Source of the DNA: a virus
IMG/VR virus record: IMGVR_UViG_3300028802_000032
Coordinates: 1-42,845 of that record
Reading direction: 5' to 3' (one strand)
DNA length: 42,845 nucleotides
Shown here: positions 7,153 to 41,002 of the stretch, piece after piece
Layout: every line of letters starts with the position of its first letter
Position numbering within the stretch: the first letter of the stretch is position 1
The notes under the pieces: generated by a model
Seen by the model: only the letters and a program-made list of their open reading frames with translations
Told to the model about the DNA's origin: nothing
Databases searched by the model: none
Made by a program: the position numbers and the translations under genes

Positions 7153-7229
7153 ACACGCGGCGGCTCGTCTGGTGGCTGGCGCTGGTGCTGCTGGTCGTGG
7201 CGTTCTCATGGTGGCTGGACCGACGCTGA
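7149..7229 (+). CDS. 26-residue single-span membrane peptide coupled to terL
   Basis: This frame starts at a GTG inside the previous stop (GTGA) with GGAGG upstream, and ends in a TGA that contains the terminase ATG (TGATG). The product is MNTRRL, a continuous hydrophobic span of about 17 residues rich in Val/Leu/Trp, then DRR. Basic residues flank both sides, as in a real transmembrane helix. Perfect junctions on both sides argue it is translated. It may only be a coupling leader for the terminase, or a small membrane effector such as a holin-like peptide. Confidence 0.5.
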   Translation: MNTRRLVWWLALVLLVVAFSWWLDRR

Positions 7230-8740
7230 TGCCCGAGGTCAAAGACTTCTGGAACCCGGTACAGAGCGCGTTCCTGCTCGCCGACGCGGCGAAGTGGCCC
7301 TACGTGGACTTGGAGGGAGCCGTCCGAGCCGGGAAGACGACGCCGCTGGTGGCGAAGAGCGCGGCGTACTGCGTGGACTACCACGGCATCCACGGGGCGC
7401 TGTGCCGGTGGACGCAGGACGCGCTCGACGCGCAGTTGAAGCCGCGCTGGCGCGACTGGTGCGCGACGCACGGCATCCGCCTGCAGTGGCACGGCGACGA
7501 GGAGTACGACGAGATCCTCGGGACCGGCTCGCGCGTCTACCTGCGGGCGCTGAAGAGCGCCGAGGAGACGAGCCGCTACGGCAAGCTGGCGGGGCTGACG
7601 CTGGCGTTCCTCGGCATCGACCAGCCCGAGGAGGTGCCCGAGGACGTGTATCGGCACTACGTGCCCGCGCGGCTGTCGCAGCCGGGCTACCCGCATCAGG
7701 TGCTGCTCACGCCGAACCCGCCGGGGCTGACGCACTGGATCGCGCAGGACTTCCCCGAGCGCAACGGCAAGGACGGCTACCTCTACCTGCGGACGAGCGT
7801 CTACGACAACCGGCACAACCTCGGCGACGACTACATCGCGAAGCTGGAGGAGGCGTATCCCGAGGGGCACGCGCTGCGGCGGCGCTTCATCGAGGGCAAG
7901 CGCGGCCTGAGCATCGTGGGCAAGCCGGTGTATGCGGGCTGCTTCAACGCGCGGATCCACACCCAGAAGCTGCGCCTGAACGCGAACGTGCCGCTGCTGG
8001 AGGGCTGGGACTTCGGGCACTCGCACCCGGCGGTGGTGTGGGCGCAAGTGCTGCCGTGGGGCGAACTGCGGGTGCTCGGCGGCATCCTCGGCACGGACCA
8101 GTTCATCGAGGACTTCGCGCCGATGGCGGTGGCGCAGCGGGCGCTCTGGTTCGGCGGGACGCCCGACGTGGACGGCGAGCGCAAGCTCCCGTGCGAGGTG
8201 TGGAGCACGGGCGACCCGGCGGGCGACCAGAACAATTCGCAGGGCACGCGCGTGAGCGCCGCCGACGTGCTGCGCGAGTATGGCGTGATGCTCTACACCA
8301 TCGGCGGGGCGAACCATCCCGATGCGCGGGACCGCTGCATCCAGCACCTCGCGGGCTACATGAAGCGGCTGACGCGGCAGGGCGCGGCGTTCACGGTGGA
8401 CCCCGACCGCTGGCTCGTCGTCGCGCCCGAGGGCGTCATCGCGAGCACGCACTTCATCGACGCGCTGGAGGCGGGCTACATCTGGGACGCGCGGAAGATC
8501 GCGCACTCGGTGTCGCCGAACACGCGCCGCGCGTTCAAGGACGGGTTCTACGACCACGCGATGAACGCGGTCGAGTACATCGTGCTGGCCTACGGCCCGG
8601 CGCAGCCGACCAAGGTGGACGCCGACAAGGAGCAGCAGCGGGCGCAGCGGCAGATGCAGCAGGACCGCGATCCGGCGGACGTGAAGGTCGCCCATCGCGT
8701 CGGGGGCCGATGGGGCGGCAGTAACAGCCGCCGCCGCTGA
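7229..8740 (+). CDS. terL: Terminase large subunit (packaging ATPase-nuclease)
   Basis: This 503-residue protein has both terminase domains. The ATPase has Walker A G30-A-V-R-A-G-K36-T37 and a Walker B strand LAFLGID131 followed by QPEE, with Glu134 or Glu135 as likely catalytic carboxylate. The RNase H-like nuclease has LEGWDFG with Asp261, STGDP with Asp329 and DHAMNAVEY with Asp442, the usual metal-binding triad. It translocates DNA into the prohead and cuts the concatemer. The ATG at 7229 is coupled to the upstream 26-residue frame. An in-frame ATG at 7208 would add seven residues but has no ribosome site. The C-terminus is Gln/Arg-rich and basic. Confidence 0.92.
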   Translation: MPEVKDFWNPVQSAFLLADAAKWPYVDLEGAVRAGKTTPLVAKSAAYCVDYHGIHGALCRWTQDALDAQLKPRWRDWCATHGIRLQWHGDEEYDEILGTGSRVYLRALKSAEETSRYGKLAGLTLAFLGIDQPEEVPEDVYRHYVPARLSQPGYPHQVLLTPNPPGLTHWIAQDFPERNGKDGYLYLRTSVYDNRHNLGDDYIAKLEEAYPEGHALRRRFIEGKRGLSIVGKPVYAGCFNARIHTQKLRLNANVPLLEGWDFGHSHPAVVWAQVLPWGELRVLGGILGTDQFIEDFAPMAVAQRALWFGGTPDVDGERKLPCEVWSTGDPAGDQNNSQGTRVSAADVLREYGVMLYTIGGANHPDARDRCIQHLAGYMKRLTRQGAAFTVDPDRWLVVAPEGVIASTHFIDALEAGYIWDARKIAHSVSPNTRRAFKDGFYDHAMNAVEYIVLAYGPAQPTKVDADKEQQRAQRQMQQDRDPADVKVAHRVGGRWGGSNSRRR

Positions 8741-8796: not shown

Positions 8797-9198
8797 ATGA
8801 ACGCACGTCTCGCGCTGATCACGTTCCTCGACGGCCACGACGGCCATCCCGACCACACGCTGCCGACGCCGCAGCCCCCGGTCGATCCCGGCTACGGCGT
8901 GACGCCGCCCGTGGACCCCGGCTACGGGCGTCCGGTCTGGCCGAACCGTCCCGACAACAGTCTGCCGGGGCAGCGCCCGCCGCACATCTCGACCGGCCCG
9001 GTGTTCCCGCCGGTCGTCCCCGACAACACGCTGCCGCCGACGGCCCCGCCGCCGACCATCTCGCTGCCGATCGTGCTGCCGGGCACCTATCCTGACAACA
9101 CGCTCCCCGAGGGTCAGCAGTTCGAACTGAAGTACAGCTTCCGGTTCGGCTGGGTCATCGTCGCGGTGCCGGGCGATCCGACGGCGGAACCGAAGTAA
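8797..9198 (+). CDS. Pro-rich repeat protein after the terminase
   Basis: This 133-residue protein is preceded by ACTGGAG and starts MNARLALITFLDG. It is then mostly Pro/Asp/Gly repeats: PDHTLP at 18, PDNSLP at 52, PDNTLP at 75 and 99, and VDPGYG at 29 and 39. The last 30 residues form beta strands (FELKYSFRFGWVIVAVPG). There is no signal peptide. Similar P-D-N-x-L-P proteins occur near phage structural genes, but I know no function. It might be a virion decoration or linker. It opens the accessory stretch between terminase and portal. Confidence 0.7.
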   Translation: MNARLALITFLDGHDGHPDHTLPTPQPPVDPGYGVTPPVDPGYGRPVWPNRPDNSLPGQRPPHISTGPVFPPVVPDNTLPPTAPPPTISLPIVLPGTYPDNTLPEGQQFELKYSFRFGWVIVAVPGDPTAEPK

Positions 9199-9199
9199 C

Positions 9200-9376
9200 G
9201 TGCGCGTCTACCACGTCGTTCTCGCCGACGGCACGGAGCGCGACGTGACCGCGCACGAAGTGCTCATCCACAACGGGTCGCTCGTCTTCAGGAATGAGGC
9301 GGGCGACGACATCCTGCTCTACGCCGACACCGCGTGGCTTGCCTGCGAGGTGTCTCGACTCGATGACAAAGGCTAA
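9200..9376 (+). CDS. Small hypothetical protein
   Basis: This 58-residue protein starts at a GTG two bases after the previous stop. It alternates beta strands (MRVYHVVLADGTERDV, then VLIHNGSLVFRN) and has an ILLYADTAWLACEV segment, suggesting a compact beta domain. It is too short to have been listed by length-limited ORF calling, but its third codon positions are G/C like its neighbours. Function is unknown. Confidence 0.65.
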   Translation: MRVYHVVLADGTERDVTAHEVLIHNGSLVFRNEAGDDILLYADTAWLACEVSRLDDKG

Positions 9377-9386
9377 GGTGCTCCCC

Positions 9387-10052
9387 ATGAAGCTGCGTCG
9401 CCTCGTCGGTCTAGTGCTCGCCCTCTCGCTGATCGCGTGCAAGGTGGGCGCGACGACCATCACGTCGTTCGGCAACATCACGCCGAACCAGTTCGTCTCG
9501 ACCGACAACGGCAACGGCACCACGACGCTGTCGGTGACCGCCGACGTGAACATCACGCAGATCTTCATGGGGCCGCTGGACCCCGACGCGCTGCTGACGT
9601 TCACGGCGACGAGCGTGGGCGATGCGACGACGTTCGGGCCGCTGGTGACGCAGAACTTTGTCGGCAGCTTCACGCTGACGAATCAGGCGGGGACGTTCAA
9701 CTACCTGAGCGGCAGCTTCGGTGGGGCGCTGCAGATCGGCACGGTCGGCGGGACTAACTCGCTGTTCACGTCGAACAACGCGCTGCTCGCGCCGCTGACG
9801 CTGTCGAGCGATCTGTCGGCGCTGACCTCGCCGGAGAGCTTCTCGCTGTCGCTGGCGAACTTGTCGCCTGCGTTCAGCGTGGACACCTCGGGCGGGCACA
9901 CGACCATCGGCAGCTTCACGGCGTCGTTCACGGGCGACGCGGACGCGACGATCCCGTCGGCGGTGCCGGAACCGGCGTCGCTGGTGCTGCTGGGCACGGG
10001 CCTCGTCGGCATGGCAGGCGGGCTGCGGCGGAAGCTGTTCCGGCGGGCGTAA
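9387..10052 (+). CDS. Secreted PEP-CTERM protein encoded by the phage
   Basis: This 221-residue protein has an N-terminal signal (MKLRRL plus a hydrophobic core to about residue 20). Next comes a Thr/Ser/Asn/Gly-rich beta-strand body without cysteines. At the C-terminus is a textbook PEP-CTERM tripartite signal: VPEPAS at 193-198, a hydrophobic helix with LLGTGLVG, then a basic tail RRKLFRRA. In bacteria such proteins are exported, then cut and sorted by an exosortase, usually in exopolysaccharide-producing Gram-negatives. No exosortase is in this window, so the host would supply it. LIAC near residue 19 could also serve as a lipobox. It is coupled to the next gene by TAATG. AAGGTG precedes the ATG. 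Confidence 0.85.
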   Translation: MKLRRLVGLVLALSLIACKVGATTITSFGNITPNQFVSTDNGNGTTTLSVTADVNITQIFMGPLDPDALLTFTATSVGDATTFGPLVTQNFVGSFTLTNQAGTFNYLSGSFGGALQIGTVGGTNSLFTSNNALLAPLTLSSDLSALTSPESFSLSLANLSPAFSVDTSGGHTTIGSFTASFTGDADATIPSAVPEPASLVLLGTGLVGMAGGLRRKLFRRA

Positions 10053-10228
10053 TGCTGCGGTGCCCGACGTGCGGGCACTACCTGCCGGTGTGCCGATGCC
10101 CGCCACGCCGCGTGGCGCTGCTGCTGGTGCCGGTGGTGATCACGACCGTGTTCGCGCGTCGCGTGCAGGCGCAGAGCACGGTCAGCGGGTGTGCGGCATC
10201 GTGCGCCCCTTCGACCGGCGCGACCTGA
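10052..10228 (+). CDS. Small Cys-rich membrane protein coupled to the PEP-CTERM gene
   Basis: The ATG shares a base with the PEP-CTERM stop (TAATG). The 58-residue product has CPTCG and CRC near its N-terminus (residues 4-16), which looks like a zinc knuckle. A hydrophobic span follows at about 21-35 (VALLLVPVVITTVFA), then AQAQS, where a signal peptidase could cut, and two more cysteines. Coupling suggests it works with the secreted protein, for example as a membrane partner. No family is recognised. Confidence 0.5.
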   Translation: MLRCPTCGHYLPVCRCPPRRVALLLVPVVITTVFARRVQAQSTVSGCAASCAPSTGAT

Positions 10229-10248
10229 CGCGACCGATCACTGCGCCC

Positions 10249-10464
10249 ATGTCGGACAACCAGACGTGGGCGCAGTGCCGTCGCTGCGGGCACGGCTACC
10301 GGGTGGCGGCGGTGCCCGGCGTGCTGCACGTCTCCGTCGGCGACTGTTACCGCTGCCACAACGTCAAGGAGCGACCCATGCAAACATCCGGCACGTTCCC
10401 CGCGCTCAACCAGCCGCGCAAGCCGAGCCGCAAGCCCAAGGTCACGAAGCCGTCGAAGAAGTAA
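10249..10464 (+). CDS. Small zinc-ribbon protein with basic tail
   Basis: This 71-residue product starts at an ATG 20 bases after the previous stop. It has CRRCG and CYRC spaced 21 residues apart, a treble-clef or zinc-ribbon pattern. It ends in a Lys/Arg/Pro tail (KPSRKPKVTKPSKK) suited to nucleic-acid binding. There is no ribosome site before this ATG. A strong one (AAGGAG) lies before an in-frame ATG at 10378, so a second product of 28 residues containing only the basic tail is plausible. Function is unknown. Confidence 0.6.
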   Translation: MSDNQTWAQCRRCGHGYRVAAVPGVLHVSVGDCYRCHNVKERPMQTSGTFPALNQPRKPSRKPKVTKPSKK

Positions 10465-10468
10465 GCCC

Positions 10469-12727
10469 GTGCCTGCCCCGCCGCCCACCGTCTACCCGCG
10501 TCCGAACCGCCGCAAGCTGACGCCGCCGAAGTTGGGCACGTCGCCGTTCGACGTAAAGCTCACCGCCGAGCAGAAGACCGAACTGGTGCAGATGCTCGCC
10601 GAGGAGATCGACCGGGCGCTCGCCGCGCGAGGGCCGATCATCAACCCCGGCGGCGACCTCGACTACTGGCACTGGCTCTACAAGCAGGGCAAGCGGAACG
10701 TGAAAGACCTGCCGTTCCCCGGCGCTGCCGACCTCTCGACGTGGATCATCGCGGAGAAGGTCGATGCGATGCGGGCGCGGTTCTGCAAGACGATCTTTGT
10801 CGAGCCGGTGTGGGTCGTGGACGGCTGGGGCGCAGCCGCGCCGCGAGCGTCGCTGGTCGAAGAGTTCCACCAGTGGAAGCAGGAAGAGGAGCGGCTGCAG
10901 GGGTGGCTGCAGCGCACGCTGCAGTTGGCGCTGATCGAGGGCACCGGGGTGCTGGAGTGCTCCGAGAAGGCCGACATGATCAAGCGCCGCAAGGTCCGCA
11001 CGCTGCTGCCCGAGACGACACCGGGCGCGAACGAGGGCGACCCGAACCTGATCGTGGCCGACGACCGAGGCGTCGTCGCGCCCGCGCTCGACGCGCAGGG
11101 CGCGGTGATGGACGCGGAGAACCCCGACGAGACGGGCGCGGTCACTGCGCCCGTGGACGAGTTCGTGCCGGTGCGGCGCGGCCCGAGCTACCGCAACGTG
11201 TCGCTCAGGGACTTCCTGATCCTCCCGGCGCACGCGCAGGACGACAGCGAGGTGTGGTGCTACGCGAAGCGGTTCTGGCGGCGGCTGAAGGAACTGAAGA
11301 GCCGCGCGAAGAGCGGCCTCTACGACAAGGACGCCGTCGAGGGGCTGAGTGCCACCAGCGATCGTACGCGGGCCGAACTGCCGCAGAGCGTGCAGGCCGC
11401 AGGCATCGACGTGGCCGCGCAGTCGAGCGAGACGACCATCGAAAAGGAACTGTGGGAACTGCACGTCCTGCTCGACCTCGACAACGACGGCAGCGAGGAG
11501 TGGTACATCATCACGCTCTCGGCGATCCACCGGCAGATCCTGCGCGTGCAACTGGACGACCTCGGGATGCCGCGCTACCTGCTCTTCCGCCCCGCGCCCA
11601 ACCCGCTGAACGTCTACGGCGACAGCCACGTCGATAAGCTCGCGTCCATCGGCGAAGAGCACATGGGCACGCGCAACGCCATCGCCGACCGCAGCAACCT
11701 CGTCAACAACGCGCCGATCAAGCGCCTGCGGAACAGCGGCTGGGACATGGACGAGGAGCCGTGGGGCGTCGGCGCGGTCATCACCGTGCAGGATATGCAG
11801 GACGTGCAGCCGGTGACGTTGCCCGACGTGCCCGGCTCGATGGCGGGGCGCGAGCAGGCGGTCATCGACGCCGCCGAGCGGCTGTCGGGGCTGAACGATG
11901 TGACGCTCGGCAGCGCCCCGCAGGAGAGCCGCACGCTCGGCGAAGTGCAGATGGTCACCGAGCAGAGCTTCGTCCGCATCGAAGAGCAGGTCCGCAACCT
12001 GCAGGAGACGATGGAGGACTTGTTCAAGATCCGCCACGAACTGTGGCGGCGTGCCGCCGACGAGTCGCCGCTGGAACCGAGCGAGCGGTTCATGCAGGCG
12101 CTGCAGTTCCGGCAGATCGACATGGCCGAGGGCGGCATCGACGGGCAGGCGCTGTCGGGGACGTTCCACGGCAAGCCGCACGGCAGCGTCGAGAGCGCGG
12201 ACAAGTCGAAGCAGCGGTCCAACTACAACGGGTTCATGCAGGTCATGGGCGGGTTCGCGCAAATGAACCCGACGCTGCAGCAGGTCTTCGCGTCGCCCGA
12301 CGTGATCATCCCGCTGTTTGAGCAGGCGCTCTCGCTCTACGATTCGCCGAACAAGGGCCAGATGATGCGCTCGCTGCGGCAGTGGCAAGTGCAGACCGAG
12401 CAGCAGGCGCAGATGGCCGCGCAGCAGCCGCCGCCGGGACCGCCCGGCGCACAGCCCGGCGCTCCACCGCCTCCCGGCGGGCCTCCAGCGGGCGCTGGGG
12501 CACCCCCACCGCCGGGAGGGCCGGGTGCCCCGCCGCCGGGACCGCCGCCGCAAGGCGGGCCTCCTGCGCCGCCGCAGGGGCCACCGCCGCCGATGATGGG
12601 CGGGATGCCGCCGCCGCCACCGGACCAGCCCGACGTGGTGCCGGGGATGGGCCAGATGCCGCAAGTGCCGCCTGATCTGCTGGCGCAGATGTCGCTGGCG
12701 ATGTCCGCGCCGGGCGGGGTGCAGTAG
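10469..12727 (+). CDS. Portal protein (P22/podovirus-like) with Pro-rich tail
   Basis: This 752-residue protein lies just after the terminase region and has the length and pattern of podovirus portals. There is an N-terminal helical region ending PFPGAADLS, a wing with LIEGTGVLEC, a long alternating beta region (LLDLDNDGSEEWYIITL) and long C-terminal helices (RIEEQVRNLQETMEDLFKIR). Residues about 645-735 are Pro/Gly/Gln low-complexity. Twelve copies would form the ring through which DNA enters and leaves the capsid. The start is a GTG four bases after the preceding stop. Portals often have disordered C-termini, but such a Pro-rich tract is unusual. Confidence 0.85.
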   Translation: MPAPPPTVYPRPNRRKLTPPKLGTSPFDVKLTAEQKTELVQMLAEEIDRALAARGPIINPGGDLDYWHWLYKQGKRNVKDLPFPGAADLSTWIIAEKVDAMRARFCKTIFVEPVWVVDGWGAAAPRASLVEEFHQWKQEEERLQGWLQRTLQLALIEGTGVLECSEKADMIKRRKVRTLLPETTPGANEGDPNLIVADDRGVVAPALDAQGAVMDAENPDETGAVTAPVDEFVPVRRGPSYRNVSLRDFLILPAHAQDDSEVWCYAKRFWRRLKELKSRAKSGLYDKDAVEGLSATSDRTRAELPQSVQAAGIDVAAQSSETTIEKELWELHVLLDLDNDGSEEWYIITLSAIHRQILRVQLDDLGMPRYLLFRPAPNPLNVYGDSHVDKLASIGEEHMGTRNAIADRSNLVNNAPIKRLRNSGWDMDEEPWGVGAVITVQDMQDVQPVTLPDVPGSMAGREQAVIDAAERLSGLNDVTLGSAPQESRTLGEVQMVTEQSFVRIEEQVRNLQETMEDLFKIRHELWRRAADESPLEPSERFMQALQFRQIDMAEGGIDGQALSGTFHGKPHGSVESADKSKQRSNYNGFMQVMGGFAQMNPTLQQVFASPDVIIPLFEQALSLYDSPNKGQMMRSLRQWQVQTEQQAQMAAQQPPPGPPGAQPGAPPPPGGPPAGAGAPPPPGGPGAPPPGPPPQGGPPAPPQGPPPPMMGGMPPPPPDQPDVVPGMGQMPQVPPDLLAQMSLAMSAPGGVQ

Positions 12728-39922: not shown

Positions 39923-40921
39923 TTACGCGGCCACCAACTGGCGGGCCTTGACGAGCGCGAGCGCCTTCACGTCGGCGTTGCCGCCGAAGAGGGCCGACAC
40001 GTTCGCGTTGTCGCGCCCGGCGACCGAGGACGCCTCGGCAGGACGGACGTGGTCGAAGTACTCGGTGACCGCGTTGTAGACGCTCCACGCGTTCGGGTCG
40101 CCGCCCGTCAGCGCCGTCGCCTTGTCCACGCCGACGCCCGAGAAGACCAGCTTGCTGACCGTCGCGCGGCGCGACTTCAGCGTGTCGCTGACGACGCCCT
40201 TGTCGCTCGGGAAGACCGACTCGATGTAGGCGATGATCTGCTTCTCGTTCAGGCGCTTCGCGGCCAACTGCGCGAAGGTGTCGCCCGTGGCGATCAGCGT
40301 CTTCGTGAGGTTCGTGAAGAGGCCACGCGCCTGCTTCACGCGGTCGTTCGCCGACGCGGTGTGGCGGATCTTCGCGAAGGTCGCCTTGTCGCTCGACGCC
40401 GCCAGCGCCAGCGTGTTCTGGCAGACGACGCGGATGGCCGTCGCCGAGCCGTTGACGCCCGTCGAGCCGTCGTGGCCCCACTTCAGGAGCGCGTAGCCGT
40501 TGACGGTGTCGCCCGCGCCGGTCACGTCCGTGTCGCCGCCCTGCAGCCGCGCGAGCGCCCAGCAGACCTCGCCGTCGCCCAGTGCGCCCGCGACCTCGAT
40601 GGACGCGCCGTACTCGCTGATGGCGATGTCGAAGATCGACGCGGCGTCGCGGTTCTGGACGGCGGTGTAGGCGGGGCCGACGATGGCAAGCTCGCGGTTG
40701 TCGGTGACGCGGCGCACGACTTGGCCCTTGTGCAGGCGCGAGCCGTCCGCGTTGAAGATCGGCTCGACGGCGACGTCCCAGTCGAGGTGGGCGGCGGCGA
40801 GGAACTGCTCGACCGAGTAGCGCACGTCGCCGCGCAGGCGCGTGCCGAGGCCGTGCCACGGGGTGGACCCGATGTAAGCGATGGCGTTCTGACCGTTGAC
40901 GGAAGCGATGTTGTGAGCCAT
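39923..40921 (-). CDS. DUF932 family (TIGR03299-like) phage/plasmid protein
   Basis: This 332-residue protein begins MAHNIASVNG and has ST-PWHGLGT near residue 24. This N-terminal PWHGLGT signature and the overall length identify the DUF932/TIGR03299 group of phage and plasmid proteins. Later motifs agree: GYALLKWGHDGSTG, an ATAIRVVCQNTLALA strand-helix, and RHTASANDRVKQAR. The biochemical role of this family is not known. It is the first gene of the minus-strand operon under promoter P2, so it is probably among the earliest proteins made. The ATG follows CACTGGAGA. Confidence 0.82.
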   Translation of the reverse strand: MAHNIASVNGQNAIAYIGSTPWHGLGTRLRGDVRYSVEQFLAAAHLDWDVAVEPIFNADGSRLHKGQVVRRVTDNRELAIVGPAYTAVQNRDAASIFDIAISEYGASIEVAGALGDGEVCWALARLQGGDTDVTGAGDTVNGYALLKWGHDGSTGVNGSATAIRVVCQNTLALAASSDKATFAKIRHTASANDRVKQARGLFTNLTKTLIATGDTFAQLAAKRLNEKQIIAYIESVFPSDKGVVSDTLKSRRATVSKLVFSGVGVDKATALTGGDPNAWSVYNAVTEYFDHVRPAEASSVAGRDNANVSALFGGNADVKALALVKARQLVAA

Positions 40922-40971
40922 GTGCGTTCTCTCCAGTGATGGGGTCGGCTTGCGTGCCGCCCGACCAGAAG

Positions 40972-41002
40972 AGTATACGTCGAAACCTAGACAAGCTGTC
41001 AA
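40972..41002 (-). promoter_or_regulatory. Minus-strand promoter P2 with GAAACCTAGA operator
   Basis: On the minus strand TTGACA (41002-40997) is followed, after 19 bases, by TATACT (40977-40972); reading GTATAC gives 18. The spacer holds TCTAGGTTTC (plus strand GAAACCTAGA at 40982-40991), as in P1. It drives the DUF932 gene and probably the whole cluster. A short inverted repeat GCACT (41028-41032) and AGTGC (41039-41043) lies upstream, towards the divergent HTH gene. Confidence 0.65.

Follow-up and report, generated by a model that had tools for sequence, protein, structure and literature searches.

Organisation of the locus and of the protein

We examined a viral DNA stretch of 42,845 bp (hereafter, the window) in which the gene of a PEP-CTERM protein lies between two phage hallmark genes, those of the terminase large subunit (TerL) and of an SU10-type portal protein (Table 1). 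The whole record contained matches to terminase, SU10-type portal, capsid protein and ERF recombinase, and no tyrosine integrase was found in it; the preliminary description of this phage as lytic-looking is thus a fair one, though it falls short of proof. The PEP-CTERM gene was translated without stops and its GC3 (0.94) was like that of the neighbouring genes. The right arm of the window consisted largely of small minus-strand genes, and a DUF932 protein was found at 39923-41002 (minus strand).

Table 1. Features of the PEP-CTERM locus in the window, and PEP-CTERM loci of the isolate phage Tunturi_5.
Feature	Position	Strand	Evidence or remark
TerL, left neighbour	7172..8740	+	phrog_2, E 2.9e-15
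Partner gene: proline-rich, PDN(T/S/A)LP repeats, GW-rich C-terminus	8797..9198	+	no PHROG/Pfam match
Conserved 58-aa ORF (VRVYHVVLADGTERDVTAHEV...), between partner and PEP-CTERM gene	9200..9376	+	retained by sister phages that lack the PEP-CTERM gene
PEP-CTERM protein gene, 221 aa	9387..10052	+	member of virus-only family
Signal peptide MKLRRLVGLVLALSLIACKVGA, residues 1-22	9387..9452	+	conserved AxA site, A20/A22 (alignment); helix 4-14 (AF2)
Ser/Thr-rich all-beta body, residues 23-192	9453..9962	+	AF2 model of the body alone: pLDDT 90, pTM 0.84
PEP-CTERM tail VPEPASLVLLGTGLVGMAGGLRRKLFRRA: motif, hydrophobic helix, basic end	9963..10049	+	TIGR02595 and PF07589 above cut-off; helix 196-220 (AF2)
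Accessory block, 875 bp, PEP-CTERM gene and coupled ORF	9388..10262	.	missing from sister phage L029
Downstream 58-aa ORF, CPxCG..CxC zinc-ribbon-like start and hydrophobic stretch	10052..10228	+	homologues directly 3' of PEP-CTERM gene
SU10-type portal protein, right neighbour	10469..12727	+	PF23899, E 2.2e-19
Tunturi_5 PEP-CTERM loci (gp179, gp97)	L015:7608-8246; L105:5108-5704	.	Pfam cut-off exceeded

The C-terminus of the protein (AVPEPASLVLLGTGLVGMAGGLRRKLFRRA) scored 23.6 bits with TIGR02595 and 26.0 bits with PF07589, and passed both curated models of the PEP-CTERM sorting domain (cut-offs of 16 bits and 20.7 bits, respectively). The three-part signal reported in the preliminary description, which had staked its reading on that profile, is therefore confirmed as real. 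The N-terminal export signal and Ser/Thr-rich beta body proposed there also agreed with our predictions: the N-terminus showed the n, h and c regions of a Sec signal peptide and an AxA signal-peptidase-I-like site (A20 nearly invariant and A22 invariant in the family alignment), and the full-length AF2 model (35 family members as input; mean pLDDT 85.7) predicted an N-terminal helix at residues 4-14, an all-beta region that spans residues 23-188, and a 25-residue helix at the C-terminus (196-220). A lipobox-like LIAC was also present at residues 15-18 (about window positions 9429-9440); its Cys was not conserved among the relatives, so it is probably incidental.

No NCBIfam model matched the body, and neither the full-length nor the body model matched a PDB fold at E<=0.001; in particular, none of the known adhesins, glycan binders or blockers was matched in the fold comparison. 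The best BFVD match (E 0.006) had low TM-scores and no inference was drawn from it. With the whole protein, the best NCBIfam match was floc-associated PepA (NF033554; Zoogloea, Aquincola), which has a similar layout. We rejected membership of that family: the score of 42.5 bits lies under the 80-bit cut-off and was driven by the tail, since the protein without its tail gave no match.

The gene order in the clade of the window was TerL, PDNxLP-repeat protein, PEP-CTERM protein and portal. The start of the downstream 58-aa ORF overlaps the stop codon of the PEP-CTERM gene (TAATG), and the two are thus probably translationally coupled; its homologues were found in the same place in L001, L002, L008, L009, L023 and other contigs. 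The sister phage L029, whose DNA was ~92% identical on the left side and ~94% on the right, lacked exactly the accessory block of Table 1, so that the PEP-CTERM gene and the coupled ORF were lost together as a clean unit. A second sister, L031, also lacked both genes with end points different from those of L029, which implies more than one change in the presence of the PEP-CTERM gene, or else recombination. Between the window and L001, the PEP-CTERM proteins were 72% identical and the TerL proteins 98.8%. Judging from these comparisons, the PEP-CTERM gene is accessory and fast-changing, which would fit a surface factor.

The association with the partner gene extended beyond this clade: a PDNxLP ORF was found at most 1.5 kb from the PEP-CTERM gene in 24 out of 57 distinct carriers and, when partner loci were found on their own, the PEP-CTERM gene was directly 3' on the same strand in 22 out of 27. 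Members of the PDNxLP family, which have a conserved GW-containing C-terminus and nearly always lie beside a PEP-CTERM gene, also occurred at L135:4213-4722 (minus strand), L190:6405-6893 and L183:684-1133, and the family spans several unrelated, apparently soil phage lineages. Other lineages carried a different small single-TM ORF 3' of the PEP-CTERM gene; proteins of this kind (LPPAFLLxIVLNxxFLG... type) were observed at L135:3216-3419 (minus strand) and in L122, L150, L181 and L190. A lysis or membrane role is possible for these small proteins. None of the companion ORFs, partner or small downstream ORFs, belonged to a PHROG or Pfam family, and we considered a holin or spanin identity of the latter unsupported, since no match was obtained.

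Extent of the family, tail types and selection

We searched IMG/VR in several ways. The scan with the single protein recovered 14 loci with 54-74% identity, and all complete ones ended in a PEP-CTERM tail, while the alignment scan with the tail-less body recovered 19 loci. The tail DNA pattern VPEP..L.LLG.G was present in 113 stretches and the control with a permuted PEP in none; 80 of the 82 matches examined were C-termini of ORFs with a basic tail. These two results exclude chance as the source of the tail. By single-linkage BLAST, 48 of those 80 ORFs (some of them sharing contigs) had the window-type body and the rest had several other bodies. The body profile (A5) recovered members left out of its construction. 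In total, the family spanned dozens of IMG/VR contigs with contig GC from 43 to 70%.

TerL was present in 25 out of 50 carrier records. When we grouped 20 of these TerL sequences together with those of the window and L040 at 50% identity, seven groups were obtained: the window-type body was present in six, and other PEP-CTERM bodies in the seventh (L118/L163). The body family thus spans six TerL lineages or more. The synteny TerL-partner-PEP-portal was conserved across independent contigs. In G044, G055, G064 and G083 the TerL profile matches crossed in-frame stops (TGA, TAG).

Two PEP-CTERM genes each were found in G002, G005, G006 and G013. Second genes, with other bodies, were observed directly 3' of the first (L002:10799-11536, L014:6442-7158 and L005:10804-11589), and some of the second proteins had long proline linkers before the tail. 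Other viral PEP-CTERM bodies formed one cluster with L118, L142, L159 and others (cluster 1) and another with L116, L163 and L191 (cluster 2); the L116- and L118-type clusters are unrelated to the window body, and the same tag is thus found on several different bodies among phages.

All 61 complete distinct members that we collected had the PEP-CTERM tail. Many of them had been found through the tail itself, and we therefore restricted the count to those complete members to which the body, the capsid or the partner had led us: the tail was present in 26 out of 26, which argues, at the level of sequence, that the sorting signal is used. V-P-E-P was invariant in the alignment of 35 sequences, with one APEP variant seen elsewhere. 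Two tail types occurred on one body, L.LLG[ST]GL..AG..RR and LALLGVGLLGLGLVRQRRA, as would be expected if the tail were fitted to different host enzymes.

Values of dN/dS for the window protein against its homologues and for close pairs were 0.1-0.9, mostly 0.1-0.6 (0.27-0.86 for the window against its relatives and 0.12-0.48 for other close pairs). L002, which belongs to the clade of the window, and L005, an unrelated phage, carried a near-identical protein (dN 0.10, dS 1.0), which indicates spread between phages under purifying selection. By these comparisons, the PEP-CTERM gene is selected and mobile between unrelated phages. The substrate reading of the preliminary description is thus partly supported overall: what stands is a real, selected gene, on a genuine tailed-phage genome, that keeps its tail.

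Cellular genomes, exosortase and an isolate phage

No relatives of the body turned up when 84,980 genomes were scanned with a pattern, nor in the profile scans of 395 genomes of a single phylum (a sample that leaves room for distant cellular homologues elsewhere), nor in plasmids. The same body profile matched seven viral records as a control. Of the two profile scans of cellular genomes, the second adds little, as both used the same genome set apart from the centre genome. In GenBank phages, the window-type body was absent and the tail peptide gave no tblastn match, although the low-complexity filter may hide matches in that search.

Exosortase (PF09721) was found neither in the record of the window phage nor in any of the 72 distinct viral records, which include the isolate Tunturi_5, a result that one would expect of phages. 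Several of these records are fragments, in which a single absence proves little, but the result was the same throughout. The earlier claim of a phage that carries the substrate and no exosortase holds in all these records, and any processing must therefore be carried out by the host. Exosortase was present in five out of seven cellular MAGs with the first tail type, in agreement with a dependence of such tails on the host enzyme. We could not assign a host through the GenBank relatives of the capsid and terminase (identity <60%, mixed hosts), and the window phage contained no tRNA genes as a host clue.

Jumbo phage Tunturi_5 (PP885688), which infects Tunturiibacter psychrotolerans X4BP1, was the only GenBank phage found with PEP-CTERM proteins. 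These are gp179 (XOB77622) and gp97 (XOB77540), both annotated as hypothetical, with PF07589 scores of 24.3 and 26.4 bits, respectively, and with bodies unrelated to that of the window. The main text of the Tunturi_5 paper never mentions PEP-CTERM or exosortase (PMC11924767). Tunturi_5 and its cultured Acidobacteriota host are both available as isolates, and the use of a host exosortase could be directly tested with them.

In the literature that we covered on PEP-CTERM with phage, virus or prophage (including a Microcystis paper, and few subscription journals or preprints), no phage-encoded substrate was described; within that coverage, the statement that no such phage system had been described stands, and it suggests that phage exploitation of the PEP-CTERM/exosortase pathway has yet to be reported. 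Searches on exosortase in Acidobacteria or Granulicella returned nothing usable.

Possible roles in infection

Bacterial PEP-CTERM proteins are exported by Sec, retained by their tail and processed by exosortase, and they stabilise the link between exopolysaccharide and the cell surface (PMC12188702; PMC9850573). The window protein resembles the substrates of this Gram-negative system (TIGR02595, PF07589; exosortase PF09721) in its signal peptide, its variable Ser/Thr-rich body and its PEP motif followed by a hydrophobic helix and a basic end, and differs from them in being encoded by a tailed phage without an exosortase and in having a body absent from the cellular genomes searched. To our knowledge, most PEP-CTERM proteins have no established function. 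Several phage or prophage products reach the host envelope through host export, such as lambda Lom and Bor, T5 Llp and N15 Cor, and some of them block adsorption; these are outer-membrane barrels or lipoproteins that use Sec, Bam or Lol. The likeness to the window protein lies in the delivery of a phage product to the host envelope, whereas its own route would be the exosortase, and we claim no sequence link.

In the reading that we prefer, with a probability of roughly 0.6 as a whole, the phage would encode a substrate of the host exosortase. Late in infection, the PEP-CTERM protein would be exported by Sec, and its PEP-CTERM helix would hold it in the inner membrane; the host exosortase would then cut at the PEP motif, and the protein would reach the outer surface or the exopolysaccharide of the infected cell. 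There, the Ser/Thr-rich beta domain would most likely coat the surface and hinder the adsorption of phages, either excluding competitors or keeping progeny from becoming attached to the dying cell and its matrix. The sorting step is the firmer part: delivery to the envelope or matrix by a host exosortase, with the processing that it entails, is likely and the best explanation of the data. It is also fairly probable that we are dealing with a virus-only family of exosortase substrates, exchanged among unrelated tailed phages and often accompanied by the PDNxLP partner, with which the host exosortase would decorate the surface or matrix of infected cells. Adsorption interference is a tentative assignment, with masking against superinfection or re-adsorption as our best guess. 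No fold match to an adhesin, glycan binder or blocker was obtained, so this role is drawn from the genomic pattern: exclusion or masking factors are typically encoded by accessory, fast-changing genes. The late position, as judged from the genome map, is however atypical of early superinfection-exclusion genes. If the preferred reading is correct, viruses that have kept the tag but not the enzyme would show exosortase systems to be targets in phage-host conflict or in the ecology of soil-biofilm phages, and a PEP-CTERM tag in a phage would be a practical sign of an exosortase in its host.

The late position, together with the known roles in exopolysaccharide, may leave room for a matrix or release role. 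In that case the sorted protein would act on the exopolysaccharide: it would loosen flocs or biofilm, or bind EPS, and so let progeny escape or spread. We regard this as rather unlikely. It is consistent with the promotion of flocs by bacterial PEP-CTERM proteins that tie exopolysaccharide to the cell (PMC9850573; PMC12188702), with a gene in the late region that adjoins the head genes and with the origin of the carriers, all of which are metagenome contigs of IMG/VR and many of which apparently come from soil. The body, however, contains no enzyme-like domain and is not itself homologous to PepA, as the floc_PepA match disappears without the tail.

It is unlikely that the tail is a C-terminal membrane anchor only. 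The protein would then need no exosortase and would have its place of action in the inner membrane or periplasm, where it might take part in lysis or set its timing. The small single-TM ORFs 3' of the PEP-CTERM gene in several lineages are what such a role would lead one to expect, and the host exosortase is itself putative, but a plain anchor needs no invariant V-P-E-P, and the neighbouring small ORFs resembled neither holins nor spanins.

We consider it quite improbable that the protein is a decoy, highly expressed late in infection, that would saturate the host exosortase and leave host surface proteins immature, with the beta body as a carrier only. Such a decoy could explain a conserved tail on widely varying bodies (several unrelated families) and the pairs of PEP-CTERM genes in some phages; the body, however, is well folded, and dN/dS values of 0.1-0.2 in several pairs place it under purifying selection; neither property would be required of a mere carrier. 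Finally, it is very improbable that the gene has no function for the virus and was recently captured from a host or introduced by misassembly. Apart from these phages, PEP-CTERM tails are known from bacteria, but the genome and plasmid searches recovered no relatives of the body, and this result, the synteny in independent contigs and the purifying selection already contradict such an origin.
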